A stretch of DNA of 64,000 nucleotides, taken from positions 62,001 through 126,000 of the forward strand of contig JASBVG010000031.1 of NCBI GenBank assembly GCA_030147505.1, written 5' to 3'. Positions 46,088 through 63,050 of the stretch are shown here, piece by piece. Position numbers and translations under genes: made by a program. Positions within the stretch are counted from its first letter, which is position 1. The number at the start of each line of letters is the position of its first letter. The DNA comes from Tardiphaga sp. (lineage in GTDB: Bacteria; Pseudomonadota; Alphaproteobacteria; Rhizobiales; Xanthobacteraceae). The notes under the pieces were generated by a model. It was not told the DNA's origin and did not search any database. It saw nothing but the letters and a program-made list of their open reading frames with translations.

Positions 46088-46249
46088 ATGGATTCTCCTC
46101 TTTGCGAGGCTTGCGATTCACCCATGGAGAAGGAAGGTGTCCGCCCGCTGCGGCCCGGGTTCGACGCCCACGTCTTCAGATGTCCGGATTGCGGCTTTCG
46201 TCGTGAACTCCCTCGCGACACGCGTTTCGCCAGCGACGAAGACCGATAG
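46088..46249 (+). CDS. Small zinc-ribbon protein (53 aa)
   Basis: Two Cys knuckles, CEACDSPME and FRCPDCGFRRE, separated by about 20 residues: a compact zinc ribbon as in rhizobial small regulators or chaperone-like proteins. ATG 46088 is supported by GGAGCC; GTG 46055 also open. Confidence 0.6.
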   Translation: MDSPLCEACDSPMEKEGVRPLRPGFDAHVFRCPDCGFRRELPRDTRFASDEDR

Positions 46250-46286
46250 AACCTAGTCCGACGTCCGAATTCGAACGTCGCCGGGT

Positions 46287-46442
46287 TCATTTCGTCTTTC
46301 CATCGGCGGCTGCGGTGCGCGCACCCTGCGCCTTGCAGTCGGTACATTGGGAACGCTGCACCTCGTAACCGGTGCGCCACGGATGCGGCCCCTTCCGATA
46401 GACGAGCATCTCGCCCCCGCATTTCTTGCAGACCTCCTTCAT
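46287..46442 (-). CDS. Small zinc-ribbon protein (51 aa)
   Basis: MKEVCKKCGGEMLVYRKGPH followed by QCTDCKAQ: two CxxC pairs about 30 residues apart, i.e. a treble-clef or ribbon fold. Convergent with the zinc-ribbon gene at 46088. Function unknown. Confidence 0.6.
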   Translation of the reverse strand: MKEVCKKCGGEMLVYRKGPHPWRTGYEVQRSQCTDCKAQGARTAAADGKTK

Positions 46443-46542
46443 CGCTCGCTCACCCGTCTCCGGCGTTCGATGATACGATCCCGCCATAGAACGCCCTCAC
46501 GCGGATGCCCTGCCGACATCGCCACGGACATCACCAAGCCTC

Positions 46543-47277
46543 TCACCGCTCGACCTCCGCCCGCAAGACTTCGACGAGCCGTGGCCGCTTCCGGCAGACA
46601 TAGGTCGTCCGACGCTGATTGTGGCCGATATTGCGCTTCATCCGTTCACAGTTGAAGCCGGCGCGGTCGAGCACCAGACGGATCTCCGCCTCGTCGTAGG
46701 TCGTCAGACCGAGCTCCTGCCTCAGCTTTCGGTACGGAGACACGGCCGTCTTCGCCAGACCGAGCACGGCGGCTCCGAGAAACCCTTCCTTCCTCGCAAG
46801 GCTCAACAAAGCGTAGGCGTCGGAAACGGCACCGCCTTCTCCGGAGACGATATCTCCGAGAACCAGCTTGCCGTCATCCTTCAGCAAGCGATCGAAGCTT
46901 GCCAAGGTCTTCCGCATGTCATCCGCGGTCATATACTGGGCGACGGAATGCATGACGACGACGTCGAACGAGGCGTCCGGAAAGACGTCAAGCTCCTTTG
47001 GAGCTACGACCATGATCTTCGGGTGGTTCGGAAAACGGACCTGAAGTTCCTCTCTCACCGAGGATGCGGCGTCGCAGAGGATGAGCTGGGCGGCCTTGTC
47101 CATCATTTCATGGACGGCGAAGTTCTTGCCGCACCCGAAATCCAGCACGGCGCTGCTATCGGGCAGATACGCAATGATGTCGCGGGTGACGAGCTGATCG
47201 TGCACGATCTTATGCTTCTGGTTCACGTAAATGTGGTGATCGGTATTCCAGAAACCGACCCAATCGAGCTTTTGCAC
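46543..47277 (-). CDS. Class I SAM-dependent methyltransferase
   Basis: A 244-residue Rossmann-fold methylase. Motif I reads AVLDFGCGKNFAVHEM, motif II LILCDAASSVREEL, motif IV ASFDVVVMHSVAQYM, then DRLLKDDGKLVLGDIVSGEG. Similar enzymes methylate small molecules or lipids. GTG 47277 with AAGGA upstream is the preferred start; the open frame to 47466 begins with unlikely basic sequence. Substrate unknown. Confidence 0.8.
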   Translation of the reverse strand: MQKLDWVGFWNTDHHIYVNQKHKIVHDQLVTRDIIAYLPDSSAVLDFGCGKNFAVHEMMDKAAQLILCDAASSVREELQVRFPNHPKIMVVAPKELDVFPDASFDVVVMHSVAQYMTADDMRKTLASFDRLLKDDGKLVLGDIVSGEGGAVSDAYALLSLARKEGFLGAAVLGLAKTAVSPYRKLRQELGLTTYDEAEIRLVLDRAGFNCERMKRNIGHNQRRTTYVCRKRPRLVEVLRAEVER

Positions 47278-47462
47278 GGGATATTCCTTCGAGCGACGGA
47301 TAGCCCCCGACACTGCAGGCAGGCCAATCCGTTTTGAATGACGAGACCTGAGCTTCGCCGTCACCGCGAAGCGCGCATCTTGCGCGTTCGCGGCTCCCGA
47401 ACGATCGGGACATGCGAAACTCCACGACGGGCGCTGAAAGCGCTGGGGATGCAGCGCCGACT

Positions 47463-47852
47463 TCACGCGCGGTCGGCAGGTCTCGGAGGGCGCTCGAAGG
47501 AAGACACGGTGCCGCTGGATGCTGCGCTCCCGACCGACATCGCTGTGGAGAGTGACGGTCCTGACGGAAGAGCGGGCGGCGTCGGGGGCAAGTGGGACGC
47601 AACGTGCGAATGGTCGGCAGGGTCGTGACGATCTGCCTCGCCGACATCGTGCTGGGCGAGAGACGCGCTCGTCACAACGGCCTCACGATCACCGTCCGGA
47701 GCGGCGGAGATATCGGACTGATGGACGTCCTGGGTTGCTACCAGGCCATGGTGCGAGTGGCTCTCGCTCCCGATCGGGGGCCGCTGCAGACCAACGATCA
47801 TCGAAAAGATGAGCACGATGCGGAGCCATGTCTGCAGGGATGAAAATGACAT
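47463..47852 (-). CDS. Small His-rich membrane-anchored protein
   Basis: A 129-residue protein: N-terminal helix (WLRIVLIFSMIVGLQ), then several His (ESHSHHG, DHSHVASHLPPTP) and a Pro/Arg-rich end. Overall plan is like the 39741 and 44680 proteins but without the CxxC. It may be a third, diverged member. An overlapping plus-strand ORF (47592-47843) is less convincing. Confidence 0.45.
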   Translation of the reverse strand: MSFSSLQTWLRIVLIFSMIVGLQRPPIGSESHSHHGLVATQDVHQSDISAAPDGDREAVVTSASLAQHDVGEADRHDPADHSHVASHLPPTPPALPSGPSLSTAMSVGSAASSGTVSSFERPPRPADRA

Positions 47853-47932
47853 CGAGTAGCGAAGCGTCCCGTTGGCCGTCGGTGACGAGTGGAGCAAGGG
47901 CGCGGCCAAATAATGGCGCCACGTCCCATATC

Positions 47933-48145
47933 TCATCTTTCGGCCTGTGGACGCGAGGCGATCTTGGCCGAGCGTTCACCCGATTTCGCTTCTCGCCGGC
48001 GACGATCGGCCAGGATCTCTCGGCGTCGATGATCGGTCATCTTCCACCAGGAGCGGACTTCTTCGGTGGTCCTGAAGCATCCAACACACATGTCCTTACG
48101 CCGATCGAACTTGCAGACGTCGACGCACGGGGATTCAACTGCCAT
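47933..48145 (-). CDS. DUF1289 protein
   Basis: A 70-residue protein. SPCVDVCKFD then MCVGCFRTTEEVRSWWKMTD matches the DUF1289 four-Cys signature (PCxxxC...CxGCxRTxxE...W). Probably a small Fe-S or Zn protein; role unknown. Confidence 0.85.
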   Translation of the reverse strand: MAVESPCVDVCKFDRRKDMCVGCFRTTEEVRSWWKMTDHRRREILADRRRREAKSGERSAKIASRPQAER

Positions 48146-48165
48146 CTTCGGAACCGATCATCGTG

Positions 48166-48471
48166 CTAGACCCGGTCGTTCAGATAGGAACGTGCCGCGT
48201 CCACCGCGGGACGGCACGCCGGCGCGGCGTCATCGGCGACCTGCTCCGGAGACCTGCGCTTGAGCCAGATGTCGAGCGCGACGCCGATCGCCCATTGAGG
48301 GTCACGCTGCACTCGGCCGACGACGACAGGTACCGACGAAGACACGCAGTCCTTCACTTGCGATAAGATCGCAGGCGGCACGCGTGCCTTCGTGAGGCGA
48401 TCCGAGATTTCGGCCTGCAGCGGATCCAGCAGGATTGATCTGACGAGAAGTTGGATGATTGTCTCAAGCAT
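48166..48471 (-). CDS. Hypothetical helical protein
   Basis: A 101-residue protein with an amphipathic N-terminal helix (MLETIIQLLVRSILLDPLQA) and a mixed second half. No signal peptide. Unrecognised. Confidence 0.5.
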   Translation of the reverse strand: MLETIIQLLVRSILLDPLQAEISDRLTKARVPPAILSQVKDCVSSSVPVVVGRVQRDPQWAIGVALDIWLKRRSPEQVADDAAPACRPAVDAARSYLNDRV

Positions 48472-48641
48472 TCTACACCGGCATCGCGCTCATATGATGC
48501 GATCCGACATCACGTAAGCTGCTAGTCGCTCACGCCAGAGGGGCCCGGACCATCCTCGAGCGCTAGATAGGAGCGCAAGCGGTCCGCGTCAAATGGCGAT
48601 CAGATGTCGTACCGAACGCAGATGGTCGAGACGCTCGGGCT

Positions 48642-48860
48642 TCAGTCGGGAAGCTCTGTCTTGCGAGAAGCTTTGGCACCGCGCTTCGGTGCCAGCGCCT
48701 TCTTCATCGCCAGTTCGATCCACTCCCACGATTTCATTCCGCGGGCCTCTGCCACTCGTTGCGCGGCATCCAGGATTTCAGGCTGCACATAGATGAGCGT
48801 CGGCACCCTGCCGTCACGACGGGTGGACGGCTTTCTCTCATCCTTCGCTGCCTTGGCCAT
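48642..48860 (-). CDS. Small basic hypothetical protein
   Basis: A 72-residue protein: basic N-terminus, TLIYVQPEILDAAQRVAEAR, GMKSWEWIELAMKKAL, basic C-terminus. The beta-strand plus two helices pattern is like a ribbon-helix-helix fold, so DNA binding is possible. It borders the mobile region to the right. Confidence 0.5.
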   Translation of the reverse strand: MAKAAKDERKPSTRRDGRVPTLIYVQPEILDAAQRVAEARGMKSWEWIELAMKKALAPKRGAKASRKTELPD

Positions 48861-49148
48861 CTTCGCTCAACGATCCGAAATCATGATCGATAGTAGCGTC
48901 GACGACCGGGCCTGCTAACAGGCATTTTCAACAAAGTTGTTGAATACTTCGTCGGAATAAAATAGATATCTGATTTTTGTATTTTTGATTGACATCGCTC
49001 GTATTTTCTGATCTAAATACGCTCGCCTTCGGGCATCCCCACCGATCCGCTTTCGCGACCCATGATGCTCCCTCCCCGGACGATCGAACGCGCATGAAAC
49101 GCGGTCGACGCGTCGCATCCCTATGTCTCTTTGACTTTGCGAGGACGA

Positions 49149-49754
49149 ATGCAGACGACGAGCGCCTTGTTCATCGGCCACAACACCGACCGCGCCATCC
49201 CCGTTAGAAGCTACCTTCATCGCGACTTCCTGATTCAGACAACCCTCGACGGCGCCGTGCGTCGCATCGAATTCCATCCCAGCCTCCGCGTCGACGACAC
49301 CATTCAGCGTGTCGATGCCGTGATCGTCGACAGCGATTTCGGCCGACATGCCATCGACCTCGTCGACGATCGTCCGCCCTGCGATCCGCAGGCGGAAGGA
49401 CTCATGCACCTCGCCTTCGCCGAAGGCTGCACGGGGATCATGACCGTCACCTCCGCCGATATCCGGCGCGAGCCGCGCTTCACCTCGGCGCGCACCGTCT
49501 GGCGTCGCCGCAGAGACACCCTGCACGTCGATGACCGCGAGGCCGTGATCGGTACGCTCGAATGCGAGGGGCCGCTGCAACTGCGCGCCCTGTCCGGCCT
49601 CATCCACACACGACGCGGGCTCGAGGCCGTCGTCCATGCCATGGCGTGCGAGGGGTCCGTGGTGATCGATATCACCGAGCCGCTCGACGACCGTGCAGTC
49701 GTGCGCGTCGGTCCGCGCGCCGTCGGTGCCGCCGTCCTCGCCTATGGTACGTAG
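49149..49754 (+). CDS. TnsA-like protein with degenerate nuclease site (copy 1)
   Basis: A 201-residue protein. The N-terminal half follows the TnsA endonuclease pattern (RSYLHRDFLIQ for the usual ES-x-LERDFL, a strand with D56, and AIDLV in place of I-E-V-K). The C-terminal half matches the TnsA winged helix (REPRFTSARTVWRRRRDTLH, then ECEGPLQLRALSGLIHTRRG). The catalytic Glu residues are replaced by Arg20/His24 and the Lys position by Val72, so cleavage is unlikely. ATG 49149 has GAGG upstream. It starts an operon with a second TnsA-like gene and an FtsH-like protease gene. Possibly a DNA- or transposase-binding factor; inference. Confidence 0.65.
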   Translation: MQTTSALFIGHNTDRAIPVRSYLHRDFLIQTTLDGAVRRIEFHPSLRVDDTIQRVDAVIVDSDFGRHAIDLVDDRPPCDPQAEGLMHLAFAEGCTGIMTVTSADIRREPRFTSARTVWRRRRDTLHVDDREAVIGTLECEGPLQLRALSGLIHTRRGLEAVVHAMACEGSVVIDITEPLDDRAVVRVGPRAVGAAVLAYGT

Positions 49755-49790
49755 CCGGCCACTCGCTCATTATTCATTCCTCACCAGGTG

Positions 49791-49809
49791 GCGCGTCCGC
49801 GGGACGCGC
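49791..49809 (+). terminator. GC-rich hairpin between the TnsA-like genes
   Basis: Perfect 8-base arms GCGCGTCC / GGACGCGC around GCG, without a T-run; may attenuate transcription between the two genes. Confidence 0.4.
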
Positions 49810-49944
49810 TGCCGAGGCTGATCATTTTCTCCGCATAGAGTCGGATTCCTCGCATATCCCGCGCGCTTTACTACAAGCGGATAGCGCGAACGATCGTCAG
49901 AGCTTCATCATCAATGTCCGCCGCAGGTCACGGGAGAATTTTGC

Positions 49945-50508
49945 ATGCGTTTTGCCCAGGCACAGTGCCGCCAGTTCTTCATTGCCAGCAAAGCTCAAGG
50001 CGTACCGCTTCCCGCCTCCGGTCTCGCGCGCGATTTGCTGATTCAGCAGTCGCTCGATCCCCGGACGCAATCGATCGGGATCGTACGCCTGACGAGCGAT
50101 GACATAACGCTCGACGCCTTCTCGGTCGAACGACCGGACGGCTTTTATCTGCTCGACTTCAGTCCATCCGGATCGCCTCAGGATTCGGGCTTCCTCAGGC
50201 TCGCGAATTCCCTCGGTCATCAAGTCCTGTGCGTCAGCCAGACAGAAATCACCGAAGAGCCCCGCTTCACCACAGCTCGTACGATCTGGTCCCATCGCTT
50301 CAACACGATTCCCGCCGCGATGCGCCTAGCGATCCTTCGCTGTCTCGACGATCAGGCAACACTGACCCTACACGATGTTTGCTCGGCGGTACCGGGTCCC
50401 AGTGATCCCGTCAGCGTGGTCATGGCGATGCTCTGCACCGCCGATCTCGAACTGGTCGAAGTTCTGTCCGAACTCCGCTCCAACACCCGCATCAGGAGTC
50501 GTGCATGA
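49945..50508 (+). CDS. TnsA-like protein with degenerate nuclease site (copy 2)
   Basis: A 187-residue protein paralogous to the 49149 product: SGLARDLLIQQSLDP for ES-x-LERDFL (Glu to Ala28), an acidic residue at D57, and YLLDFSPSG, where IEVKP is expected (Glu to Asp71, Lys to Ser73). The C-terminal winged helix is recognisable from ITEEPRFTTARTIWSHRFNT onwards. GGGAG is 8 bases upstream of ATG 49945. The stop overlaps the AAA+/protease gene by ATGA. Probably inactive as a nuclease but retaining a binding role. Confidence 0.65.
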   Translation: MRFAQAQCRQFFIASKAQGVPLPASGLARDLLIQQSLDPRTQSIGIVRLTSDDITLDAFSVERPDGFYLLDFSPSGSPQDSGFLRLANSLGHQVLCVSQTEITEEPRFTTARTIWSHRFNTIPAAMRLAILRCLDDQATLTLHDVCSAVPGPSDPVSVVMAMLCTADLELVEVLSELRSNTRIRSRA

Positions 50509-52448
50509 GCGAGAAAACCATTCACTCGCTGAAACACACTGAAGGTGATCTCGACCTTCCGAATGATGCGGAGACGGACGATCCCGTTTTCTCTTCTAAA
50601 CTATTCCAGAAATCCGGTTTGAAGTCGTTGATGACTGCCGCAATCGACACGGTGTTGCCGCAGGCGCTCGTCGAGCGCCCGGAAGGCACTGTGAGCATTG
50701 TCGTCATCGTCGTGCCGGATCCAACTTGGATCGGACCAGTCGTTTCGGCCTGGCGCAGCCGTTTCCCGGCTGGCTGGAAAGTCATCGACCGTGACGGATC
50801 ATCCAAGCTTCTGCATAGGGCCGACGTCGGTGGCCAAGACCTACTTTCTGCGCTCACGCTCGGTTTCTCAGTGGTGGGCGTTGCAACCGACGTGAGATTG
50901 CTTCCTACCGCGCTGACCGCTTGCGCGGATCACACGCTGTCCATCCGCATCGACGACTTAGTTCTGGCACGCGCAATTACCGCCTTCACAGGAGGTGCCA
51001 AGCCGGCGGTTCAGGCCCCGGACGTTTCGTCGATGGATCTTTTCACCGTGGCTGCCGGTTTTCGTCCCGGCTCGACGGCCGAGGAGATCGTCGAACGCGT
51101 TCGGTTCTACCGGAACAAGCTCTTGCCTCCCCCGCCGGCGGATGCAGTCGACTTGCGCGACGCCGTCGAGTTCGGTGCGGCGCAGGAGTGGGGCTTGCAG
51201 CTTGTCGACGACTTCGCGCGGTGGCAGCGCGGCGAGCTTCCATGGTCATCGGTCAATGCCGCTTCGATTTTTTTCGGCCCTCCCGGAACGGGCAAGACGA
51301 CGCTTGCCCGTTCGATCTATGACGCTATCGCCAGCGTTTCGCGGGTGCCAGTACGATTCGCCAGCGCATCGATGGCGGATTTATTCGCGAGTACGAACGG
51401 CTACCTCAACGAGGTCATTAAGGAAGCCAGACGCATCAATACAGCAGCCGCCCCAGCCGTAATTTTCTGGGATGAGGCGGATTCCTTAGGAAGCCGCCGC
51501 AACAGCGGCGATCATAACGAACAATATTTCGCAACCTTGTTGTCGGAGTTCCTTCTATCCATTTCGGCGGCCCGCCGGACTGAAGGCATTGTGTTGCTGG
51601 GCGCAACAAATTTCCTCGATCGGATAGATCCGGCGCTGCGGCGTCCTGGCCGTTTTGACCGCAGCATTTACGTCGGAACGCCCGACGCCGCCGGCACCGC
51701 AGGCATCGCACGCCGACATCTTCGGGGAGACCTTGCCACCATCGATTTGTCGGGGTTCGCTATCACTTGCTCCGGCCGTACCGCGGCGCAGATTGAGGCA
51801 GTGGTTCGCGACGCCCGCACCATCGCACGAAAGGCGGGCCGGAAGATCGAATTGACCGATCTGATGGACGCCGCTCTTCCGCCCTCCTCTCTTTCCGGAG
51901 ACGATCTTTGGCGTGTCTGCGTTCATGAGGCCGGGCACTGCGTTCTGGCGCTGGCGTTGGATCTCGGTGAGATCGTCACCGTCGTGGTCGGCATGTCGCC
52001 GGGCTCCCATGGCGAGACGATCAGCCGGCGACATGATGGCCTGACGACACGCGTCGATATGGAGCGACGAGGTTGCATGATCATCGGCGGACGATGCGCC
52101 GAATTGGTCTTGCTTGGCGAATGCGTCGCCGAAAGCGGAGGAAGCGACGACAGTGACTTGGCTTTGCTGACCGAACTGCTGTCATCCTTCGCCCACTCCA
52201 CCGGCCTCGGCTCCACCCTCGCCTATCTCGGTTCGCCTCAAGAAGCAGTTGAGATCGTCCGCCACAGTCCAGCACTCCGCGGCCAGGTCGAACGCCACAT
52301 GCGGGCGATCGAAACGCGGACCGTAGGCATCATCACCGAACATCGAAATGCCGTCGAGCGAATTGCAGCCGCGCTGCAAGCCCGCCGTTATCTCACCGGC
52401 GAGCAAATCCGCGAACTTTTTCATTCAGCCAATCAGGAGATTGCATGA
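50505..52448 (+). CDS. Soluble FtsH-like AAA+ / M41 metalloprotease
   Basis: A 647-residue fusion. Residues 1-220 are a non-membrane N-terminal region; FtsH normally has two transmembrane helices there, and none is visible. The AAA+ module is complete: Walker A GPPGTGKTT (258-266), Walker B FWDEAD (321-326), and RRPGRFDR (379-386), the second region of homology with the arginine finger. The M41 zinc protease follows: HEAGH (474-478), with the third ligand plausibly Asp in GGSDDSDL (about 546-551). Both stops/starts overlap neighbours (ATGA), so the four-gene set is one operon. An ATP-driven protease linked to TnsA-like proteins would be a new arrangement; substrate unknown. Confidence 0.85.
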   Translation: MSEKTIHSLKHTEGDLDLPNDAETDDPVFSSKLFQKSGLKSLMTAAIDTVLPQALVERPEGTVSIVVIVVPDPTWIGPVVSAWRSRFPAGWKVIDRDGSSKLLHRADVGGQDLLSALTLGFSVVGVATDVRLLPTALTACADHTLSIRIDDLVLARAITAFTGGAKPAVQAPDVSSMDLFTVAAGFRPGSTAEEIVERVRFYRNKLLPPPPADAVDLRDAVEFGAAQEWGLQLVDDFARWQRGELPWSSVNAASIFFGPPGTGKTTLARSIYDAIASVSRVPVRFASASMADLFASTNGYLNEVIKEARRINTAAAPAVIFWDEADSLGSRRNSGDHNEQYFATLLSEFLLSISAARRTEGIVLLGATNFLDRIDPALRRPGRFDRSIYVGTPDAAGTAGIARRHLRGDLATIDLSGFAITCSGRTAAQIEAVVRDARTIARKAGRKIELTDLMDAALPPSSLSGDDLWRVCVHEAGHCVLALALDLGEIVTVVVGMSPGSHGETISRRHDGLTTRVDMERRGCMIIGGRCAELVLLGECVAESGGSDDSDLALLTELLSSFAHSTGLGSTLAYLGSPQEAVEIVRHSPALRGQVERHMRAIETRTVGIITEHRNAVERIAAALQARRYLTGEQIRELFHSANQEIA

Positions 52449-52714
52449 TCCGGATCACGATCGAACTCCTTCCAGGTGGATATCAAGATCCAGCGCGTCG
52501 CCCGATCGGCATGATGCATATCGGCAATATCACTGATCTCGCCGATCGCAGCGACTACGACATCACGCTCATGGAGGCGGCAAATCCGTTGATTCAATCG
52601 CCACCGCGAATGACAAATTTCATTCTCAGGAATCACGATCGGAATTCTTCCGTTTGGATGCTTGTCCGGGCGGCGCTTGCCGATTTTGAAAGCGCCGATT
52701 GGGAGGTTCTGTGA
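52445..52714 (+). CDS. Small conserved-looking protein of the FtsH-like operon
   Basis: An 89-residue protein (MIRITIELLPGGYQDPARRP, MMHIGNITDLADRSDYDITL, HDRNSSVWMLVRAAL). Start ATGA overlaps the protease stop, so it belongs to the same operon. Predicted beta-rich compact domain; no family name known to me. May be a substrate adaptor of the protease (inference). Confidence 0.65.
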   Translation: MIRITIELLPGGYQDPARRPIGMMHIGNITDLADRSDYDITLMEAANPLIQSPPRMTNFILRNHDRNSSVWMLVRAALADFESADWEVL

Positions 52715-53404: not shown

Positions 53405-53806
53405 ATGCGTAGTTATGACCGTGGGGCCGTCTACGGAGCGTTCATCATCGACTTCCTGAGGTCGGTCCATCCCACCCATGTCCTGCTCTCTATGGACGCG
53501 GATCACTTGGCCAATGAGATCGCCCGCGGCGACACCGCTCTCTTCAGTGCACGCAATCCGGAACGCCGCGCCATTAGCGCACTTTTCCGCGGGTGTCGCC
53601 AGTTGCCCTCCGTCAGCAGCGTCCGTCGGACCCTGTTGGCGCAGCACGATAGTCCTGAGAGCTACTGGACGCGCCGGCGGTCCCGCCTGGCCGACACTGC
53701 TCCCGACGATGAGTTCGGCGATGTCGCAGCCGCGCGCGACGAGCTCCCCGACCCCGACGAGCACTGGGACCACGTCGAGACCACCGCAGAGATGAACGCA
53801 CTCTAG
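53405..53806 (+). CDS. Hypothetical protein ahead of tnsA
   Basis: A 133-residue protein: an N-terminal fold with YGAFIIDFLRSVHPTHVLLS, a basic middle (VSSVRRTLLAQHD) and an acidic C-terminus (DDEFGDVAAARDELPDPDEH). AAGGACC lies upstream of ATG 53405. About 100 bases ahead of tnsA, same strand. No known domain; could be a transposition regulator or cargo. Confidence 0.6.
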   Translation: MRSYDRGAVYGAFIIDFLRSVHPTHVLLSMDADHLANEIARGDTALFSARNPERRAISALFRGCRQLPSVSSVRRTLLAQHDSPESYWTRRRSRLADTAPDDEFGDVAAARDELPDPDEHWDHVETTAEMNAL

Positions 53807-53908
53807 CGCAAACCTCCGACTGCCTCACCCCGGACTGTATCACCGAAGTGCAAAGCCTCGGGCGGCCTCCTCGGCCGCCCAACTGTCCTTCACGCCATGG
53901 GAGACTGG

Positions 53909-54562
53909 ATGGATTTTTCGCACCCCACTGCCCCAAGCATCGCATCGCGCTTTCCTGAACTGAAGAGTCGCGCCAGTTGCCGCGGCTTCGCGGTCTACCG
54001 AAACCGGACGACCGTGTTCGAAAGCCACATCGAACTGTGCGTCATCTGGATCTTGTCCACGATGCCGGACGTCGTCGAAATCATCGATCAGCCGCCTGCG
54101 GTTACCTATGTCGATGCCGCAGGTATTCTTCGAACGCACACGTTCGACTTCCTAGTCATCATGGCCGACGGTCGCAGGCTTTTCCTCATGGTGAAGCCGG
54201 CGGCGAAGGCCGATAAGGCGCGCGCTCTGGCGCGAACGATCGCTAATCAGCTCCCGCCGGGGATTGCAAACTCAATCCATGTGGTCACCGACGCCGACTT
54301 CAGCCGGATCGATCGTCACAACGCCCAACTGATGTTCGAATGCGCGCGCTTCCCTGTCCGCGCCCATGACGCAGTGATCGACAGTCTCACCATCGCCATG
54401 ACAGGCGCGGTCAAGGTCAGCGAGTTGGTCTCCGTTTCCCGTTTGGGCGGGGCCGGCTTTCGCGCGGTCATGCGCGCGCTGGCAGGCGGCATCCTATCCC
54501 CGGCAAATCCGGGCGCACGGATCACCACCGATAGCTACGTCGTCCGCAACAACGCCTCATAG
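53909..54562 (+). CDS. tnsA: TnsA-like transposon endonuclease
   Basis: A 217-residue TnsA-type PD-(D/E)xK endonuclease, which in Tn7-like elements cuts the 5' strand at transposon ends. Residues FESHIEL (Glu38/Glu42), THTFDFLV (Asp80) and FLMVKP (Lys96) fit the catalytic pattern; the residue two before Lys is Met94 rather than Glu/Gln. C-terminal winged helix (DAVIDSLTIAMTGAVKVSEL onward). ATG 53909 has GGGAG 5 bases upstream; ATG 53897 is the alternative. Contrasts with the two degenerate TnsA-like genes upstream. Confidence 0.75.
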   Translation: MDFSHPTAPSIASRFPELKSRASCRGFAVYRNRTTVFESHIELCVIWILSTMPDVVEIIDQPPAVTYVDAAGILRTHTFDFLVIMADGRRLFLMVKPAAKADKARALARTIANQLPPGIANSIHVVTDADFSRIDRHNAQLMFECARFPVRAHDAVIDSLTIAMTGAVKVSELVSVSRLGGAGFRAVMRALAGGILSPANPGARITTDSYVVRNNAS

Positions 54563-54674: not shown

Positions 54675-56792
54675 TTGAGCGATGACACCCCTGTAAACAT
54701 CGGCTGCCTCGCGAGAGTGGTGATCTATCCCAATCGCGTGTTGAGAGTTTCGTCCGGATCGCCCGCGGATCCCAATGGCTACGTGCTCGTTGACGTAAAC
54801 GTCCATACACCGCTTCATGAATCGTTCTCTCACTCGACCATCCGCTCGATGATCCGCGCGGGCGCGATGCGCGTCGACCACGGCTGGTATGACGAAGGTC
54901 GGTCTGCCGCTCGACTCTTTGCCGGCATCGACTCGTTGTCGCAATGCCTGCCGTCCGAGCGGAAGCAGATCGCTCGGCGAGAGATGTATGTGCGTGAGTT
55001 CCTGCGCCGCGAAGCCAACGATACTACGGTCACGCGGACAGATGCACGCATCAAGGAAGTTCTGATAGAGATACATGGCTCTCTCGTCAGTTCGGACACG
55101 CGATGCGACAAGCCAACCGTAGTCTTCGCCGCTCCGGCGGCGCGAACGTTTCGACGCTGGCTCGCCGCTTTTGAGAAAAACGGGTTCGAGACGATCGCAC
55201 TGCGCCCGCGTCGCCGCTTCTGCGGCAACACCATCAGCAACATGCACCCGGAGGCGGTGCGGCTATTGAAGAACCACGTTGTCGAATACTGCGATGAACG
55301 CCGCCCTTCGGTTAGCACCGTGTATCGGCATCTGACCGCTTCGATCAAGAATTTGAATGCTGAGCGCCTGCTGCGCGGCGCCGATCCGGTGACGTGTCCC
55401 GCAAAAGCGACCCTTTCCGATCAGATCAAGAAGCTGAACGCGTTCGAAGTATATGCGAGCAGAAACGGCTTGCCGGCCGCCCGCGCCAAGTTCGCGATCA
55501 ATAGCGGCGGTCTCGACGTCGATCGACCGATGCAGCATGTGCAGATCGACGATTGGTCCGTGCAACTGCACATGTTGGTCGATGATCTAGGCGTTGGCGA
55601 TCTGTTCTCGGAGAAAGACCGTCTCAAGCTGAAGAAGGTACGCCTGAAGTGTTGCGCCGTGATCGACATCGCGACGCGATGCATCCTGGGTTTGCGCCTG
55701 TCCACGAAAAGCGATTCCGAGAACTCCATCGCGACCCTGGCGCTGATGGTTTCGGACGACAAGACTGATATTGCGAAAGCTGCAGGCTGCCTCAGCGACT
55801 GGCCGATGGGCGGCCCAGCGGGCGTTCTCAGCGCGGACGCAGGTAGTCAATTCATCGACGAGGATTTTCGGTCGCGAGTAAGCGATCTGAAAATGGTCTA
55901 CGAAAATGCCCCGGCAGGCCTGTCGCACCTGCGTGGGCACATCGAGCGCGTCTTCGGCACCATGCACACAACTCTCATCGAAGAGTTTCCTGGACGGTCC
56001 TTCTCCCACGTCGTCGAGAAAGGCGACTACAAAGCCGAAGACCGTGCCTCCATCTTTATCGAGAGCGCGCCGCAAATCTTCGTGCGATGGGCCGTCGATT
56101 GGTATCATCACTCTCCCCATGCTGGCCTCGGCGGTGAGACACCATACCGTGCGTGGAAGCGGCTGACCGCCCAATACGGTGTCGATGCTTGCCCAAATCC
56201 CCACCAGAGACGCGAGATCTTTGGTGTCGAGATCGTACGCGCGCTCGACGCCAATGGCGTCAAAGTGTGCGGCTTGTTCTACCAGTCGCCCGTGATCCAG
56301 GAATGGCGACGCCGTGTCGGCGACGCGCGCGTCCGTGTTCGCTTCGATGAATGCGATATCGGTCACGTCTCCGTCTGGGTCGAGAATGCGTGGATCAGCG
56401 TGCCGTCGGTGAAAGAATTCGTCCGAGGCCGGCACCTGCACACATGGACGGAATGCGTACGCGACCTGCGGCGCCGGTTCGCCGCCGAGGCCCGCATCGA
56501 CGAGCATATCGTCGCGGAAGCGATCCAGGCAATTCAACGCATTTCGGACGAGGCCATGGCGCGTGTTGCGATCGATCGCACCCGTCCAACATCGGACGAG
56601 ATCGATCGAACGGAAACCTCGCTGATGCTCGGATTTCAGATTGTCGATGCGCCGACCGAGGATACGGGAATCGGCGGTGGAATCCTGGCGAACGAAATCC
56701 CGGTCGCCAGCGCTAAGCCGCCCCGACTTCCTCCAACGGAGCCTCGTCCCCCGAAGAATGAGGACGATGACAACTACGGCCTCGAGGACTGA
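54675..56792 (+). CDS. tnsB: TnsB/TniA-like DDE transposase
   Basis: A 705-residue retroviral-integrase-fold transposase. The catalytic core shows QIDDW (Asp292 or 293), SADAGSQF (Asp388) and GHIERVFG (Glu424), giving the D-x35-E spacing. N-terminal HTH-like DNA-binding regions precede it, and a Mu C-terminal-like beta barrel (about 500-590) follows. The start is TTG 54675, with AAGGAG 8 bases upstream. Catalyses 3' strand transfer in concert with TnsA. The C-terminal tail is Pro-rich and acidic, probably the TnsC contact. Confidence 0.9.
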   Translation: MSDDTPVNIGCLARVVIYPNRVLRVSSGSPADPNGYVLVDVNVHTPLHESFSHSTIRSMIRAGAMRVDHGWYDEGRSAARLFAGIDSLSQCLPSERKQIARREMYVREFLRREANDTTVTRTDARIKEVLIEIHGSLVSSDTRCDKPTVVFAAPAARTFRRWLAAFEKNGFETIALRPRRRFCGNTISNMHPEAVRLLKNHVVEYCDERRPSVSTVYRHLTASIKNLNAERLLRGADPVTCPAKATLSDQIKKLNAFEVYASRNGLPAARAKFAINSGGLDVDRPMQHVQIDDWSVQLHMLVDDLGVGDLFSEKDRLKLKKVRLKCCAVIDIATRCILGLRLSTKSDSENSIATLALMVSDDKTDIAKAAGCLSDWPMGGPAGVLSADAGSQFIDEDFRSRVSDLKMVYENAPAGLSHLRGHIERVFGTMHTTLIEEFPGRSFSHVVEKGDYKAEDRASIFIESAPQIFVRWAVDWYHHSPHAGLGGETPYRAWKRLTAQYGVDACPNPHQRREIFGVEIVRALDANGVKVCGLFYQSPVIQEWRRRVGDARVRVRFDECDIGHVSVWVENAWISVPSVKEFVRGRHLHTWTECVRDLRRRFAAEARIDEHIVAEAIQAIQRISDEAMARVAIDRTRPTSDEIDRTETSLMLGFQIVDAPTEDTGIGGGILANEIPVASAKPPRLPPTEPRPPKNEDDDNYGLED

Positions 56793-56833: not shown

Positions 56834-57316
56834 ATGACGAATAATATCCCGCGTCGGACTCTCTTCGTGAAGGGCACCCGCTTGGAGGCGGACGATGCCG
56901 TGGTACGCGCCGTCGCTGCCTGTCCGGGCGTCAATCAGCCCATCATCACGGTCCCAAAATCACAACACGTTTCATCTTCATTGCGGGACGTCGTTATCTC
57001 CATCACGCGCAGCGCCGGCGGCCTGGTGCGAGGGAACCGTTCGCTTGTATTTGCGCTCGACGCCTGCGTCTATCAACTGGACCGAAAGGGTTGGCCGATC
57101 ATCCACCTGCGCGGCGAAACCGGACCTCAACCTGAAACCGCAAATGTTTTGAGCGTCCTGCTTCGCCAGGGGGCTCGCCTGATCATCAGCAATCAGAACC
57201 TACTCCCAATCTTCGTAGACGATCCGCAAATTCGTAGGCGCGCGCGGTTCGTGCTATCAGCCGAACTGACCCCAGGTGATATCGCATCGATCTGCGAGGT
57301 AGCCGATGAGCGGTAA
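56834..57316 (+). CDS. Extra 160-residue protein between tnsB and tnsC
   Basis: Not part of canonical tnsABCD. Its second half (KGWPIIHLRGETG, LSVLLRQGARLIISNQNLLP, RARFVLSAELTPGDIASI) aligns in order with residues 91-160 of the FtsH-like protein (GWKVIDRDG, LLSALTLGFSVVGVATDVRL, ADHTLSIRIDDLVLARAI). It therefore looks like a stand-alone version of that protease's N-terminal domain. ATG 56834 is about 40 bases after tnsB; the end overlaps tnsC by 11 bases. May link transposition to the protease operon. Confidence 0.65.
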   Translation: MTNNIPRRTLFVKGTRLEADDAVVRAVAACPGVNQPIITVPKSQHVSSSLRDVVISITRSAGGLVRGNRSLVFALDACVYQLDRKGWPIIHLRGETGPQPETANVLSVLLRQGARLIISNQNLLPIFVDDPQIRRRARFVLSAELTPGDIASICEVADER

Positions 57317-58346
57317 CCCAGCCGATATGGTCGCGCGCCTGCATGCCAGATCATCCCAGGCGCGCGAATTTTCCATCATGGAGCAACTGCGGTCAAAATA
57401 TGCGAAGAGCCCCCGGGATGCGATGTTGGCCGACGCCTTAGACCGTCTCGTCTCTGGAGCGGTCCAGCGGGCCGATCTCGCGTTGCCTGCAGGATTTGGG
57501 AACCGTGTTCATGGTACGGCTCTCGTTGTCATGGGGCCGACAGGCGTCGGTAAATCACGCGCTTTGGCCCGACTTTTCAAGCGGGACCCCGAGTTAGCGG
57601 GTTTCGAGGACCCGAAATCGGCGTCGCCGCTACTAAGCGTGTCAGCACCTGCGCACTGCACTCCCATGCAGCTCGCCCGCACGATCCTGCGCGCTTCAGG
57701 CTATCCGTTAAAGCGCGATCTCCCCACACACCAGTTGTGGGAGCTTGTCTGGGAACGGCTCGACGCGATGGAGAAGTTCCTGCTGCACATCGACGAACTG
57801 CAGCATGTGGTGCAGTACCTCACTGACAAAGACCGCCAAGAGATGGCGAACACGCTCAAACATTCGATGGAAGGTCGGCGGATCTCGCTCATCCTGTCGG
57901 GGGTGGATGCCATGGTCGACTTTCTGCAATTCGACGAACAGCTCTTTCGGCGCATGACGCTGAAACCACTCCCGCCAATGTCGCCTGACACCCTCCCCGA
58001 CCTCGAGAGAGCAGTCTTCGAATACGCGAGTGCGGCCAAGCTCGAATTCGCGGTGGATATGCGACACTCGGACTTCTTCGCTCGCCTCGCGCATGCAGGA
58101 CTGCGCGCATTCGGTTACGCGATCGTCCTCACTCATTCCGCGATCGAGCGGGCGCTGCTGCTTGGCGACACAACGTTGACGGTGGAGCACTTCGCCCAGA
58201 TTTTCGCGGCCAAGACTGCAGTGACAGCGGACCGCAATCCGTTCTTGGCTCCCAATTGGCATGCTATCGATTGCGCATCCTACTGGCAGAGGCCCGACGA
58301 GCCGACAGCGCCCACGCCTTCTGCACGACGAGGTCGCAAGAAATGA
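57306..58346 (+). CDS. tnsC: TnsC/TniB-like AAA+ ATPase
   Basis: A 346-residue AAA+ regulator that selects targets and activates the transposase. Walker A is GPTGVGKS (77-84), Walker B FLLHIDE (158-164), and a sensor-1-like Ser-Gly follows (LILSGVDAMVDFL). Length fits TniB/TnsC of Tn5053/Tn7-like elements. Starts within the end of the 160-residue gene and overlaps tniQ by ATGA, so the proteins are co-translated. Confidence 0.9.
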   Translation: MSGNPADMVARLHARSSQAREFSIMEQLRSKYAKSPRDAMLADALDRLVSGAVQRADLALPAGFGNRVHGTALVVMGPTGVGKSRALARLFKRDPELAGFEDPKSASPLLSVSAPAHCTPMQLARTILRASGYPLKRDLPTHQLWELVWERLDAMEKFLLHIDELQHVVQYLTDKDRQEMANTLKHSMEGRRISLILSGVDAMVDFLQFDEQLFRRMTLKPLPPMSPDTLPDLERAVFEYASAAKLEFAVDMRHSDFFARLAHAGLRAFGYAIVLTHSAIERALLLGDTTLTVEHFAQIFAAKTAVTADRNPFLAPNWHAIDCASYWQRPDEPTAPTPSARRGRKK

Positions 58347-60178
58347 AACTCGGGCAACTGGCGCTTACTGTTCGTCATGCGGATGATGAACCACCGCAAT
58401 GGTTCCTCGCCCGCTTGGCCTCGCGAAACTTCCGCGCCACGAAAATGTTCGCGGCCGACATGAACCTCGACGCCCGGCGGATCATTGACGGAGATCTTGG
58501 AGAGATCAGTAAGCTGGCCGAATTGAGCGGCGCAGATCCAGCGGTCCTTGCCTCGCAAGCTCAGGTCCGCATGAACGATGGTGTCTATCAATTCCGGTCG
58601 CAGGAACTCCGGGTCGCAAACCTTCGGAGATCTCGAATTCTTGTTTGTCCACGCTGTCTCAGAAACGACCTCGGTGCATCTGATCTTCCAGCTCACTTGG
58701 CCGTTTACGGGCGGACGATTTGGACACTTGCCCCTATCCGCACCTGTCTGCGACACGGCCTCGCCTTGGTCGAGATCGCTCGAAATGTCATCTCCCATGA
58801 TTGGCCCGATTTTACGGGAGCGATCACGCCCCTGCTGCCGATGCTGGATAAACTCGAGGATGGGGCGATCTCCCGCCCCGCCACTAAACTAGAACGACAT
58901 GTCCTGCAGCGGATCGCCGGCCAACAATTGGAGGCCTGGTTCGGATCATTTCCGCTCTTTGCCGCCGTCCAGATCGCCGAGCTTATCGGCGCTGTCGCCC
59001 TTTACGGCCCGAAGACGAACTTGCGGAAGCTCGGCGAAGATGAGTGGTACGCGGCAGGTGATGCTGGCGCAGAAATTGCTGACGGCGGTCCGGCGTCAGT
59101 GGTGGCGCTCTTAGAAACTTTACATGGCAACTATATCGCGAAGGCGTCCGGCAAGTCGGACACCGCACAAGGTATTTTCGGGCGGCTTTACACGGTTCCT
59201 GCTCAAGGCATGAGGGACGTCGTTTTCGACCCGTTCAGGGAAGCAATGACCGGGTTCATTACCGACAAACTGGCGCTCGGATCAGGCGATCGACTATTCG
59301 GCGCTCCCGTACCCGCCAGGCGCTTTCATTCCGTCCGGACGGCATCGCGAGAATTCAAGATCACGCCGAAACGGTTGCGCAAGATCCTGCTTGCCGAAGG
59401 CCTCATCGATCCTGCTCTCGCCGACAGAGATGCAACTTTTGAGGCTTGTAATGCCGAGCGCATTGCAAAACGCGAACACGATATCATCAGCATCACCAGA
59501 CTGCGAACCTATTTGACAGCCGATATCTCGCTCACTCTCGCCCTTGTCCGGGACGGGTTGATAGCAAAACATTGCGCGGGCGACGGAATGAACGATTTCG
59601 TTCTGAAATCAGAGGTTGATCGACTTCTCACGAACCTCTTCGAGCGCGCAAAGCCCGTCGACGTCGCCCCCCCTTCGTGTGCGCTTATACCGAAAGCCAG
59701 CAAAGTTGCATTCCGTCCAATGGCAAGAATCGTCCGGCTGATCCTCGACGACAAACTCAAGTGGGTCGGCAAAATCAAAGGAAAATCTGGCTTCTCAGCC
59801 ATTTTGGTGAATTGCGACGAAGTACGCATAATCACTAAAGCCGATCCGCTTCCGGGATTAGTGATAGCCGACGCTTGCAAAGCTATCGGCTTGCAGTCTC
59901 GAGTTCTGGAAAAGCTCATCGCCTGTCAGGCTGTGACCACTATCAAGGCGCTGCACCCGCTCAACCTTGCTCCGACAAGGGTGATCTCGGAAGACGAGAT
60001 CGAACGGTTCAAGAGGGAATTCGTCAGCCTGTACCAACTGTCAAAAGAGTTGGGAGCTCACATGAACGAGTTGAACCGCCGACTGAAGCGACAAGGTGTC
60101 CTGCCCTGCTTCGCCGATGTCGGCGCATCGTTCTTCAGGCGAAAACATGTTGCGGCGGCGTTGGGCAGGGACAGATAA
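58343..60178 (+). CDS. tniQ: TniQ/TnsD-like target selector
   Basis: A 611-residue protein. TniQ domain with N-terminal start KLGQLALTVRHADDEPPQWF and a zinc finger formed by Cys102, Cys105 (VCPRC), Cys135 and His138 (TCLRHG). C-terminal region has several HTH-like segments, consistent with a TnsD-type site-specific target binder rather than a minimal TniQ. ATG 58343 overlaps the tnsC stop. Chooses the insertion site; target unknown. Followed by a terminator. Confidence 0.85.
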   Translation: MKLGQLALTVRHADDEPPQWFLARLASRNFRATKMFAADMNLDARRIIDGDLGEISKLAELSGADPAVLASQAQVRMNDGVYQFRSQELRVANLRRSRILVCPRCLRNDLGASDLPAHLAVYGRTIWTLAPIRTCLRHGLALVEIARNVISHDWPDFTGAITPLLPMLDKLEDGAISRPATKLERHVLQRIAGQQLEAWFGSFPLFAAVQIAELIGAVALYGPKTNLRKLGEDEWYAAGDAGAEIADGGPASVVALLETLHGNYIAKASGKSDTAQGIFGRLYTVPAQGMRDVVFDPFREAMTGFITDKLALGSGDRLFGAPVPARRFHSVRTASREFKITPKRLRKILLAEGLIDPALADRDATFEACNAERIAKREHDIISITRLRTYLTADISLTLALVRDGLIAKHCAGDGMNDFVLKSEVDRLLTNLFERAKPVDVAPPSCALIPKASKVAFRPMARIVRLILDDKLKWVGKIKGKSGFSAILVNCDEVRIITKADPLPGLVIADACKAIGLQSRVLEKLIACQAVTTIKALHPLNLAPTRVISEDEIERFKREFVSLYQLSKELGAHMNELNRRLKRQGVLPCFADVGASFFRRKHVAAALGRDR

Positions 60179-60470: not shown

Positions 60471-61241
60471 ATGCCACGACAACGGTTACGCAATTTGATC
60501 AACGCACAATCTGTTGCTGCACCGATCCTACCACTAGTGCACACCACTGATGTCTATAGATTGACCAATGTTCTAGACGATGGACGTCTTGAACCTCGAC
60601 CGTGCCCGGTGTTCAACCAAGAGCCGCTACTTTATTTTTTCTACGGGCGCCCCTCCTATCGCATAAATTCAAAGGAGGCGGCGACTTCGCTCGATCACTA
60701 CCTCCCTGTTTGTTTGCTTTTCAACACGTCCACCGTAACTCCGATCAAACGTGTTTTCCCGTTCGACAGTGGCGGCTTCAACGAACAGCTTTACGCCGAT
60801 GCATTTCACCGTGACATGCACTTGGAGGACTTCGGCCTAGAACCAGATCCCAATACACCGGGCCGCGTAGTATCTCTGTTTTTTCGGGCACCAGAGTCCT
60901 ATTTGAAGGCAAAACCTACCGATTCGATCAGTCTAGACCCGGCTGAACTAGAGGCGCGAAGTTATCTGGCGCTGATCAATCAGCGCCTCAGCAACAACAT
61001 GGACAATCGCGTTTCTGGCGTAGAAATACAGTTTGAAGGGCCACTACCGATTGCTGACGGACTGGAAGCAATAATCCTTCCTGACACCTTGTACAGCAGC
61101 CCGAGCATCGCTGCGAAACTAAGCGCTTTGAAAGTGGAAGCTCTGCCATACGATCAAATAGATCGGCAAAGACCCTCAGAATACGTAACAAAGCTTTTTG
61201 ACCTCTGCACGGACTACTACCGAAAACGCGGCTTAATATAG
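60471..61241 (+). CDS. Cargo protein A, possible ART-like fold
   Basis: A 256-residue protein. LVHTTDVYRLTNVLDDGRLE, then LYFFYGRPSYRIN resembles the start of ADP-ribosyltransferase-like domains (H-x-T near the N-terminus, then a Y/F-rich second strand), with a later EIQFEG as a possible acidic element. This is a weak resemblance and could be coincidental. GGGGAG is upstream of ATG 60471. Base composition is AT-richer than neighbours, and it is 12 bases ahead of cargo gene B, so they form a pair. Confidence 0.5.
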   Translation: MPRQRLRNLINAQSVAAPILPLVHTTDVYRLTNVLDDGRLEPRPCPVFNQEPLLYFFYGRPSYRINSKEAATSLDHYLPVCLLFNTSTVTPIKRVFPFDSGGFNEQLYADAFHRDMHLEDFGLEPDPNTPGRVVSLFFRAPESYLKAKPTDSISLDPAELEARSYLALINQRLSNNMDNRVSGVEIQFEGPLPIADGLEAIILPDTLYSSPSIAAKLSALKVEALPYDQIDRQRPSEYVTKLFDLCTDYYRKRGLI

Positions 61242-61253
61242 CGGTGAACGAGA

Positions 61254-63050
61254 ATGCCTCAACTCGACGGTTTTCTCATTATAGCAAAAGATACGCCATC
61301 TTTCGTTACACCAGTCTTCAACGATCGCAGCGGCGGAAATGCGTCCATGATTCAAGAGATCAGCCGATCAGATACCGTTGAAGCGTTCCTCGAAATCGAT
61401 GTCGGCAACGACTACGAGAGATCACCTGAAAAGTGGACCGTCGAACTCGGCGATGATGCACTATGGGCTTTTCGTTCAACTAATGGAAAGGTCGTCGCGG
61501 GGACAAATTCAGAACTAATCGAGATACTCGCGAAACGGCTCCGACAAGATGAGTTCAGAAATTTTCCGCTTATAGAAAATCAAGTTGCAGAATTTTGTCG
61601 TGAGCAACGATTTTATCGTATGGCGCTAACGCGATCTTTTGAATCCATCGGAAAGCGTTCGAGTCTTATGGCGGAAATCTGGCGCGATTCCGTCGTACTT
61701 CTTCCTATTGCAAAACGCGAGCTTGCACTTGAGTATCAAAATCAACCTGATTTCGATCAAATAAATGACGCCAGACTAGCCAGCCGGGGGAAAACTATCG
61801 AACTCAGCCTACCGGCAACCATCTACGATCGAATCCAATCAAACAAGCAATCAATTGAATTCAAAAACACATCTTCTATCGGCCGCGCTTTCGGTCTTTC
61901 AAAAGTATCGATTGCCAGACAGACATCGTCGCAAAACAAACCAAAATCCTCTATCGATTCAACGCCATTTGGCATCATCAATAGTCTCAGTGGCATCGGC
62001 GATCTAGTAGTACGCGACATGCCCAGAACGCCCCGCGGCTACATGCTCCAAGCTCCCTGGAGCACGAGGACAAGACGATCAACGCCCTCCTCGCCTTTCG
62101 TGGCTTTCACGATCCTTAATGCCGATCGTTCAAAATTCGAACGCAGCAAAAAAATTGCTGAACAAACCACCGACGCAACGGTGAAGGTTGCGATAGTGAC
62201 CATGCCGATCAGCTTTGGCACTCAGAATGGCAGCAAAATTGACGTTACCGAGCTACAAAAACTAAAACCCCAATACGATTATATCTTCATAATTAGCAAC
62301 CATTTACTCTCAAATCCTATCGCGATCGCTCCGAGGCTTACGGCTTCTAGCCGAGCAGTTAAGTACGTCAGAGCGTGCATAGATGGATTCATGCAAATCG
62401 TTTGGGCCAGCGACGAGATTAGAACGTCGCAAGAATTTGTGCGAATTTTCCCACGTAATGGCTTTTGTTTAGTAGGTCGCGGTACTGACAACCGAGATCG
62501 TAAGACTACCGCGCTTTTCGAGGCTATCGCGAGCACGGCCAATGAGCGTCTACCTATTCACCATGGAAAACGCCTCGCGCTAATCGGGCCAAAATCGATC
62601 ACGCAATCTCGCCAAGCAACGGATTTTTTAGATCAAGCAGTGGCCTCAACTACAAACTCCGTTGCATCAATTGAAGTTACGTCATCCAAGCGCGGAGTGA
62701 CTATTTTGGGTTTTGGCATCGACGTTGCGAAGCCAAGCTCGCACCGGTTCCGCGAATTTTGCTTAGAGCTTCTTCGCATCAAAGGAATCACCATTAGCCG
62801 AGAGACCGAACAGGTCGCTCTTGGTCACCTAGTGAGGCACCGCGTAGCCTTTGCATTTGCGCGTTCAGAGAGAATGGTAGAAGACGCACTCGAAGCACTG
62901 AAATCTTTTCGCAACGCAGAACAGTGTATCCTGACTTCGTACAAGCCACACGCTGCACTTACCGATTACTTAAACGGTCGCCGGATCACAATTCTACACT
63001 ACTCGTCGCTTGATCGCTTCCTCAGCTCAAGACGTTTGAACGAGGGTTAG
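61254..63050 (+). CDS. Cargo protein B, degenerate FtsZ/tubulin-like
   Basis: A 598-residue protein; first 240 residues unrecognised. Residues 281-490 follow FtsZ in order and spacing: FVAFTILNADRSKFERSKKI (where FtsZ has the GGGTGTG loop), VKVAIVTMPISFG (FtsZ TVAVVTKPFSFEG), LKPQYDYIFIISNHLL (VDTLIVIPNDRLL), FVRIFPRNGFCLVGRGT (DVRTVMSxxGxALMGxG), ALFEAIA, GKRLALIGP, and GVTILGFGI (RVTVIATGI). The GTP-binding signature is missing. The C-terminal 108 residues are a separate unrecognised region. Base composition is AT-rich, so probably acquired. Likely partners with cargo protein A in a conflict or plasmid-like system; inference. Confidence 0.6.
   Translation: MPQLDGFLIIAKDTPSFVTPVFNDRSGGNASMIQEISRSDTVEAFLEIDVGNDYERSPEKWTVELGDDALWAFRSTNGKVVAGTNSELIEILAKRLRQDEFRNFPLIENQVAEFCREQRFYRMALTRSFESIGKRSSLMAEIWRDSVVLLPIAKRELALEYQNQPDFDQINDARLASRGKTIELSLPATIYDRIQSNKQSIEFKNTSSIGRAFGLSKVSIARQTSSQNKPKSSIDSTPFGIINSLSGIGDLVVRDMPRTPRGYMLQAPWSTRTRRSTPSSPFVAFTILNADRSKFERSKKIAEQTTDATVKVAIVTMPISFGTQNGSKIDVTELQKLKPQYDYIFIISNHLLSNPIAIAPRLTASSRAVKYVRACIDGFMQIVWASDEIRTSQEFVRIFPRNGFCLVGRGTDNRDRKTTALFEAIASTANERLPIHHGKRLALIGPKSITQSRQATDFLDQAVASTTNSVASIEVTSSKRGVTILGFGIDVAKPSSHRFREFCLELLRIKGITISRETEQVALGHLVRHRVAFAFARSERMVEDALEALKSFRNAEQCILTSYKPHAALTDYLNGRRITILHYSSLDRFLSSRRLNEG

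Follow-up and report, generated by a model that had tools for sequence, protein, structure and literature searches.

Host ClpX clears the post-transposition complex of Mu, and the defence system IetAS combines an AAA ATPase with an S8 protease. In the sections that deal with ClpX, a report on a type I-F Tn7-like CRISPR-associated transposon (CAST) hypothesises that this protein aids the disassembly of the post-transposition complex, describes an about 200-fold drop in the propagation of the selection phage with one evolved TnsB in a clpX deletion host, and presents ClpX as helping the Tn7-like CAST insertion tool but being toxic in human cells (PMC12326709). Here, we analysed a stretch of 64,000 nucleotides from Tardiphaga sp. 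(assembly GCA_030147505.1, contig JASBVG010000031.1, positions 62,001 to 126,000; hereafter, the window), which lies in the contig labelled C73 of a 6.2 Mb genome. In the window, a Tn7-like transposon bears an operon of four genes, g1 to g4, which appear to encode two nuclease-dead relatives of the endonuclease subunit TnsA, a protease of the FtsH type and a small partner protein.

The operon occupies the forward strand and consists of g1 (49149–49754; 201 amino acids, aa), g2 (49945–50508; 187 aa), g3 (50505–52448; 647 aa) and g4 (52445–52714; 89 aa). The genes g1 and g2 are separated by 190 bp, ATGA overlaps join g2 to g3 and g3 to g4, and the gene starts are preceded by purine-rich stretches resembling ribosome sites. 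A sequence-only reading of the window had placed four open reading frames (ORFs) here with the same two overlaps; both were verified in the sequence, and what that reading observed about the content and position of the operon is confirmed as real.

The products of g1 and g2 are paralogs (29.6% identity over 186 aa, E 4e-15 in blastp). The predicted structure of g1 gave Tn7 TnsA as its top row in the PDB, with 187 of 201 residues covered, and also matched the entry of the TnsA/TnsC(504–555) complex, with both domains covered. Moreover, a profile made of g1 and g2 relatives (the g12 profile) was aligned with TnsA by hhalign at a probability of 90.6% (E 1.3e-6; a single comparison, with its sole true TnsA row removed), as compared with at most 0.6% for unrelated profiles and 0.2% for the best of 30 shuffles, and the same profile also detected TnsAs located 5' of tnsB. 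In Pfam, g2 had a single, below-cut-off match (PF08100, E 0.19). The g1/g2 profile had no hits among PDB sequences, a null result that is uninformative because even the real TnsA profile meets Tn7 TnsA there at no better than E 1.8, with eight unrelated rows ranking higher. The sequence-only reading had taken both small proteins for TnsA-like and would have given up this identity had no TnsA similarity been found; the similarity was found, in the profile comparison, in the fold and in the detection of TnsAs by the g12 profile.

The catalytic Glu of TnsA is replaced by His24 in g1 and Ala28 in g2, and the catalytic Lys by Val72 and Ser73, respectively, exactly the residues on which the proposal of dead nucleases had been based. 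This proposal is supported by the family columns. When 21 TnsA-labelled rows were compared with 37 g12-labelled rows, three of which were later found to be positioned 5' of tnsB, the catalytic Glu was present in 90% vs. 19%, the Lys in 90% vs. 5%, the Gln in 86% vs. 5%, and the Asp in 100% vs. 59%. Thus, the fold with both domains and the sequence relatedness of TnsA endonucleases are there, and the catalytic Glu/Asp/Gln/Lys set is not. Alignments and structure models together support the assignment of g1 and g2 as nuclease-dead TnsA-like proteins.

In a tree with the labels as first given, the dead proteins clustered together (34 rows, support 91/90), and the two labels required three changes because the g12-labelled L115, L065_8016 and L062_13345 were placed among TnsAs (L numbers are our labels of loci). 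In a second tree, from which four long rows were removed and in which these three proteins were relabelled as TnsA by their position 5' of tnsB, the dead proteins clustered again (33 rows, support 93/98). The TnsA-like ORF 5' of tnsB in L115 (15694–16455) itself seems to be without the catalytic residues. Neither g1 nor g2 had a significant blastp match to the TnsA of their own element. The comparison of g1 with two relatives indicated purifying selection, with nonsynonymous divergence (dN) of 0.025 and 0.10 and synonymous divergence (dS) of 0.28 and 0.66. We also considered whether g1 and g2 are recent pseudogenes, and rejected this, as for g1 the dN values are much smaller than the dS values and the dead proteins cluster together in the trees.

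The g3 product contains an AAA domain (Pfam, E 2e-25) followed by an M41 domain (E 3.5e-9), with the motifs GPPGTGKT at 258, IFWDEAD at 320, DPALRRPGRFDR at 375, HEAGH at 474 and SDDSDL at 547. It therefore has the AAA+ and M41 order of FtsH with HEXXH and an Asp zinc ligand, and it has no evident N-terminal membrane anchor as judged by hydropathy: the maximum in 19-residue windows (2.12) falls at and C-terminal to HEAGH (residues 476–499), and in the N-terminal region the top window (residues 62–80, modelled as strand, loop and helix) reaches a borderline value of 1.64. The motifs, the Pfam and structure matches and the hydropathy bear out the description of g3 as an FtsH-like protease with complete motifs and without an evident anchor. 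The PDB matches listed for g3 cover only residues 174–647. The extra N-terminal domain (about residues 36–206) matches the protein's own AAA domain weakly (6.1%, E 0.006), and in its modelled order of strands and helices it resembles a shortened AAA domain. Homologs of g4, 44–62% identical, lie directly 3' of g3 in L022, L023 and L024, and the sole match of g4 across the library scans was one in PHROGs at E 0.09.

In the same three loci, the whole order g1-g2-g3-g4-tnsA-tnsB recurs, with an extra gene (the gX family) between g1 and g2 in L023. The gene order is thus not unique to this genome; a unique order, which the sequence-only reading had named as an outcome that would speak against it, was rejected by the neighbourhood search. 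Relatives of g1 were found in five loci, the named contigs coming from Bradyrhizobiaceae bacterium PARB1, two Bradyrhizobium and one Rhodopseudomonas. The g3 N-terminal profile was present in 53 of 397 genomes of the order (E ≤ 1e-6) and in 14 of 385 genomes of the class (E ≤ 1e-3); L026, read because of a weak match in genome G011, contained no module gene.

The 86 g3 positions of the order-wide sample correspond to 73 separate loci, after the exclusion of 11 weak places and two in a stretch already counted. Dead TnsA-like ORFs of at least 90 aa were counted. Among these loci, 25 had tnsB or tnsC, 19 had a dead TnsA-like ORF and 15 had both, so that the dead partner accompanied g3 in 15/25 loci with tnsB or tnsC vs. 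4/48 without (Fisher p 4e-6); one of the 15 ORFs (in L107) is by its position the element's own TnsA, and three of the four loci with the dead partner but lacking tnsB and tnsC had TniQ pieces or TniQ 25–28 kb away. In this sample, the presence of the TnsA-like partner is tied to Tn7-like elements. Additionally, g3 was on the tnsA side, 5' of tnsB, in 27 of 27 loci with both genes, and on the same strand in 22; the stretches read extended mostly about 10 kb to each side of g3, and an opposite placement would show in most of them. In the 397 genomes, 20 of 56 TniQ genes lay within 15 kb of g3, an about 50-fold excess over the expected 0.4, and 18 of 86 g3 positions lay within 15 kb of TniQ (expected 0.4); both expectations presume genomes of 5 Mb. 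The gap between the ends of the g12 and g3 profiles was 0–140 bp in 13 of 20 listed rows, and distances among the dead TnsA proteins correlated with those among g3 proteins (Mantel rho 0.51, p 0.0005, 25 loci), although this and the other correlations given here are inflated by some loci being close relatives. Because of these short gaps and the correlated divergence, the dead TnsA-like protein and g3 form a unit.

Of this unit, g3 does not follow the transposase. Distances among tnsC products correlated with those of TnsB (rho 0.64, 21 loci) and only weakly with those of g3 (0.17, p 0.02), and we saw no close co-evolution between g3 and the transposase, the rho of g3 vs. TnsB being 0.03 (p 0.33, 23 loci). 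As the dead TnsA and g3 diverge together and g3 does not diverge with TnsB, the pair is a swappable module that moves independently of the transposase core. The window locus itself reads as a mosaic, because g1 is far more alike among relatives within the genus (95% and 84% identity) than their g2, g3 and TnsB, which are just 33–62% identical; dS is 0.28–0.66 for g1 vs. 1.9 for TnsB.

The partner of g3 differs between carriers. Profiles of GIY-YIG-like proteins, phosphoesterases or exonucleases matched in 30 of 56 g3 loci without tns genes vs. 4 of 30 with them (86 loci), and none of the sought partners was found in 24 of the 86. The exonuclease has a PolB-type match in Pfam, and the GIY-YIG and phosphoesterase labels rest on plasmid annotation, recognised motifs and weak matches. 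By these profiles, g3 is the constant component and its partner the one that varies with the carrier. GIY-YIG-like proteins near g1 or g3 in L006, L025, L057, L058 and L059 seem to have Asp at the expected place of the catalytic Glu. In the viral contigs L151, L152, L155, L157, L159 and L184, g3-type proteases are located near metallophosphoesterases, and in L152 such a protease also adjoins a member of the gX family. A search of viral contigs with g3 as a single query gave nothing useful.

What the analysis shows directly is the gene content with its families, the inactive catalytic sites, and the conserved pairing and position. Judging by the choice of partner, the one-sided placement and the conservation of the TnsA fold, g1 and g2 may bind at TnsA sites and deliver complexes to g3. 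Our best reading, which we put forward tentatively, is that of a protease guided by adaptors, by which transposition complexes are remodelled or degraded. In this scheme, in which the hexamer, the adaptor role, the substrate and the outcome are inferred, g1–g4 would be a self-contained module of the Tn7-like transposon, with one or two dead TnsA-like proteins serving as adaptors for a soluble, hexameric, FtsH-like AAA+ zinc protease. As the dead protein keeps both TnsA domains, it is probably able to dock, without cutting DNA, where TnsA docks, at the TnsC tail, TnsB or strand-transfer complexes; it would then pass these complexes to g3, which would unfold or degrade them. The purpose might be to clear the post-transposition complex, to limit the activity of the transposase or to take apart transposition complexes that belong to competing elements. 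It is conceivable, and we say this a shade more guardedly, that in one Tn7-like lineage a dead TnsA has become the adaptor of a soluble FtsH-like protease encoded by the element, which would dismantle or destroy the lineage's own or its rivals' transposition complexes, as an on-board, adaptor-guided replacement of ClpX.

Of the sequence-only reading, the identities are borne out, and the roles that it proposed (remodelling or proteolysis of transposition complexes, or defence) are candidates. Position and partner choice favour a link to transposition; a general mobile module is favoured by the independent exchange and by the loci that have no tns genes. Several observations weigh against the transposition reading. 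TnsB is not followed by g3 and is followed weakly by g12 (correlation 0.19, p 0.07, 13 loci), so that nothing indicates an adjustment of the module to one particular transposase. No recognisable dead TnsA was present in 10 of the 25 Tns-linked g3 loci, and in a looser count, which admitted short matches as well as loci chosen by hand from plasmids and elsewhere, the g12 profile matched in 21 of 30 Tns loci but also in 16 of 56 others, some of the Tns-locus hits being TnsA itself. Dead TnsA and g3 occur together without tns genes in the stretch read in L006, L008, L025, L057–L059, L061, L071 and L073 (the contigs of L071 and L073 have TniQ 25–28 kb away), and L064 has dead TnsA with no g3 within its stretch; L064 is a tnsA-tnsB-tnsC-tniQ element, and further contigs of its genome carry g3 genes. 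Finally, on plasmids and in viral contigs, relatives of g3 are accompanied by phosphoesterases, exonucleases or GIY-YIG-like proteins. This last finding, together with the exchange of the module independently of the transposase core, would fit a defence function, in which the AAA+ protease, carried as cargo of the Tn7-like element, is directed against phages or invading mobile DNA by a partner that works as the sensor (dead TnsA, GIY-YIG-like protein, phosphoesterase or exonuclease). We regard defence as nearly as likely as action on transposition complexes. The AAA part of g3 had its best PADLOC match in IetA, an AAA ATPase, and Tn7-like elements frequently bear defence cargo, as stated in part of PMC8649781. 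However, PADLOC reported no complete anti-phage system among ten proteins of the window, with matches of g3 to AAA-domain models only (IetA, TRIP13 and weaker ones) and of tniQ to TniQ models, and none for g1, g2 and g4; moreover, the 27/27 placement on the tnsA side and a partner that tracks the type of element are unnecessary for ordinary cargo.

That an element with an intact TnsA also has dead paralogs in which the TnsA fold is complete could also point to the control of copy number or activity, with g1 and g2 as dominant-negative TnsAs that compete for TnsB or TnsC, and g3 clearing a repressor or the transposase and so setting the transposition rate. The location of the operon 5' of tnsA, preceded by a small gene on the opposite strand, would suit such a role, as would the dead TnsA that stands without g3 beside tnsA-tnsB-tnsC-tniQ in L064. 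We nevertheless consider it unlikely, as g1 and g2 are far from the element's TnsA and cluster with other dead proteins rather than with the TnsA of each element, and as 9 of 25 loci with g12 adjoining g3 have no match to tnsB, tnsC or tniQ in the stretch read. More improbable still is that the role of the operon is an unrelated one, housekeeping-like or toxin–antitoxin, and that it is found near tns genes because both gather in islands: 48 of 73 sampled g3 loci are without tnsB and tnsC in the stretch read, but mere hitchhiking leaves the one-sided placement and the excess of TniQ genes near g3 unaccounted for.

The element that carries the operon has tnsA, tnsB, tnsC and tniQ in a single run on the forward strand and is thus a Tn7-like transposon. 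Its tnsA (53897–54562; Pfam Tn7_TnsA-like_N, E 9.7e-7) retains E/Q/D/K and encodes an active-type endonuclease subunit; it is followed by the DDE transposase gene tnsB (54675–56792; recognised by a tnsB profile made here and by Pfam Mu-transpos_C at E 3.5e-5, over the cut-off), the AAA+ regulator gene tnsC/tniB (57306–58346; TniB, E 6e-20) and tniQ (58340–60178; TniQ, E 9.7e-13). A forward ORF of 133 aa 5' of tnsA (53405–53806) likely belongs to the transposon core; an ORF at the matching stretch of L023 is 26% identical (E 5e-11), and no homolog was found at the matching stretches of L022 and L024. Between tnsB and tnsC lies a forward gene of 160 aa (56834–57316) with a 27% identical homolog 3' of tnsB in L023 and no match in Pfam, PADLOC, NCBIfam and PHROGs scans; to our knowledge, a gene at this place is not standard Tn7 content. 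Two forward cargo genes 3' of tniQ, of 256 aa (60471–61241) and 598 aa (61254–63050), might be a defence or toxin pair. The former had no match in the same four libraries, and the latter had none in PADLOC, PHROGs and Pfam and a weak one to NCBIfam ftsZ (16.4 bits vs. the cut-off of 295.2). Upstream of g1, a divergent gene of 72 aa (48642–48860, reverse strand) gave no family in a Pfam search up to E 0.5, and is kept in 6 of 87 g3 loci (the window, L006, L023, L024, L058 and L059).

Homology of the left flank to two other genomes stops at about 48.6 kb and that of the right flank to relatives begins at 63.21–63.25 kb, and therefore the operon lies inside the inserted stretch, between its left boundary and tnsA. 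We looked for inverted transposon ends and found no clear ones, and a search for the empty site showed the left flank in two other element-bearing loci and just one 150-bp match in 17 further genomes. A direct repeat of 110 bp is present at the right boundary (63097–63207 and 64007–64117, the second copy just beyond the window) and also right of the element of genome G012, and the chromosomal homology of several relatives begins exactly at 63207. The same left flank (the 46142–49755 region) precedes elements in three genomes (the window, L243 and L244), among which the 72-aa gene and g1 have 80–88% DNA identity, above the transposase core. A segment of about 2.9 kb, with 94.6% identity, is common to two of the three and absent from the window.

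In the open-access literature, the scope of our search (subscription papers fell outside it), no description of a dead TnsA paired with an FtsH-like protease was found. The words FtsH, protease, peptidase and M41 are all absent from the main text of PMC8649781, and in the part of PMC10293859 that was covered, FtsH and peptidase do not occur and "protease" occurs five times, among the matches listed as reagents. Each part of the module has a known family, and the novelty lies in how the parts are combined, conserved and positioned inside an otherwise recognisable Tn7-like element. The recurrence of the pairing in related bacteria suggests that a transposon may have a means, not described so far, of handling or policing complexes that cut DNA. 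If it holds true, an unfoldase-protease of the element's own with a TnsA-shaped adaptor would be a new layer of control on transposition, and g1–g4 a candidate part for CAST insertion tools; if the module serves defence, it would be a new modular system of one protease with varying nuclease-like partners. The dead TnsA lineage would be a clear case of an enzyme subunit turned into a partner protein.

Compared with Tn7 TnsA (PDB 1F1Z and 1T0F), with which g1 shares both fold domains in the same order as well as profile similarity, g1 and g2 have lost the catalytic Glu, Gln and Lys, coexist with the intact TnsA of the element and are paired with a protease. That protease, in turn, differs from the FtsH, m-AAA and i-AAA zinc proteases of the M41 family by its extra N-terminal domain and by the lack of an evident N-terminal anchor, and it scores far under the NCBIfam cut-off for the FtsH equivalog (133.8 vs. 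600 bits). IetAS is similar in its protease theme and in the likeness of IetA to the AAA part of g3 (PADLOC E 5e-13); in g3, however, an M41 zinc protease is fused to the AAA domain, the operon has no S8 protease, and the partners are different. The ClpX-assisted disassembly in Mu and, as hypothesised, in type I-F CAST would be the working analogue, that of an AAA+ machine on a transposase complex; in the present case, the element itself encodes the machine, which has its own protease and a TnsA-like partner and would act on Tns proteins.

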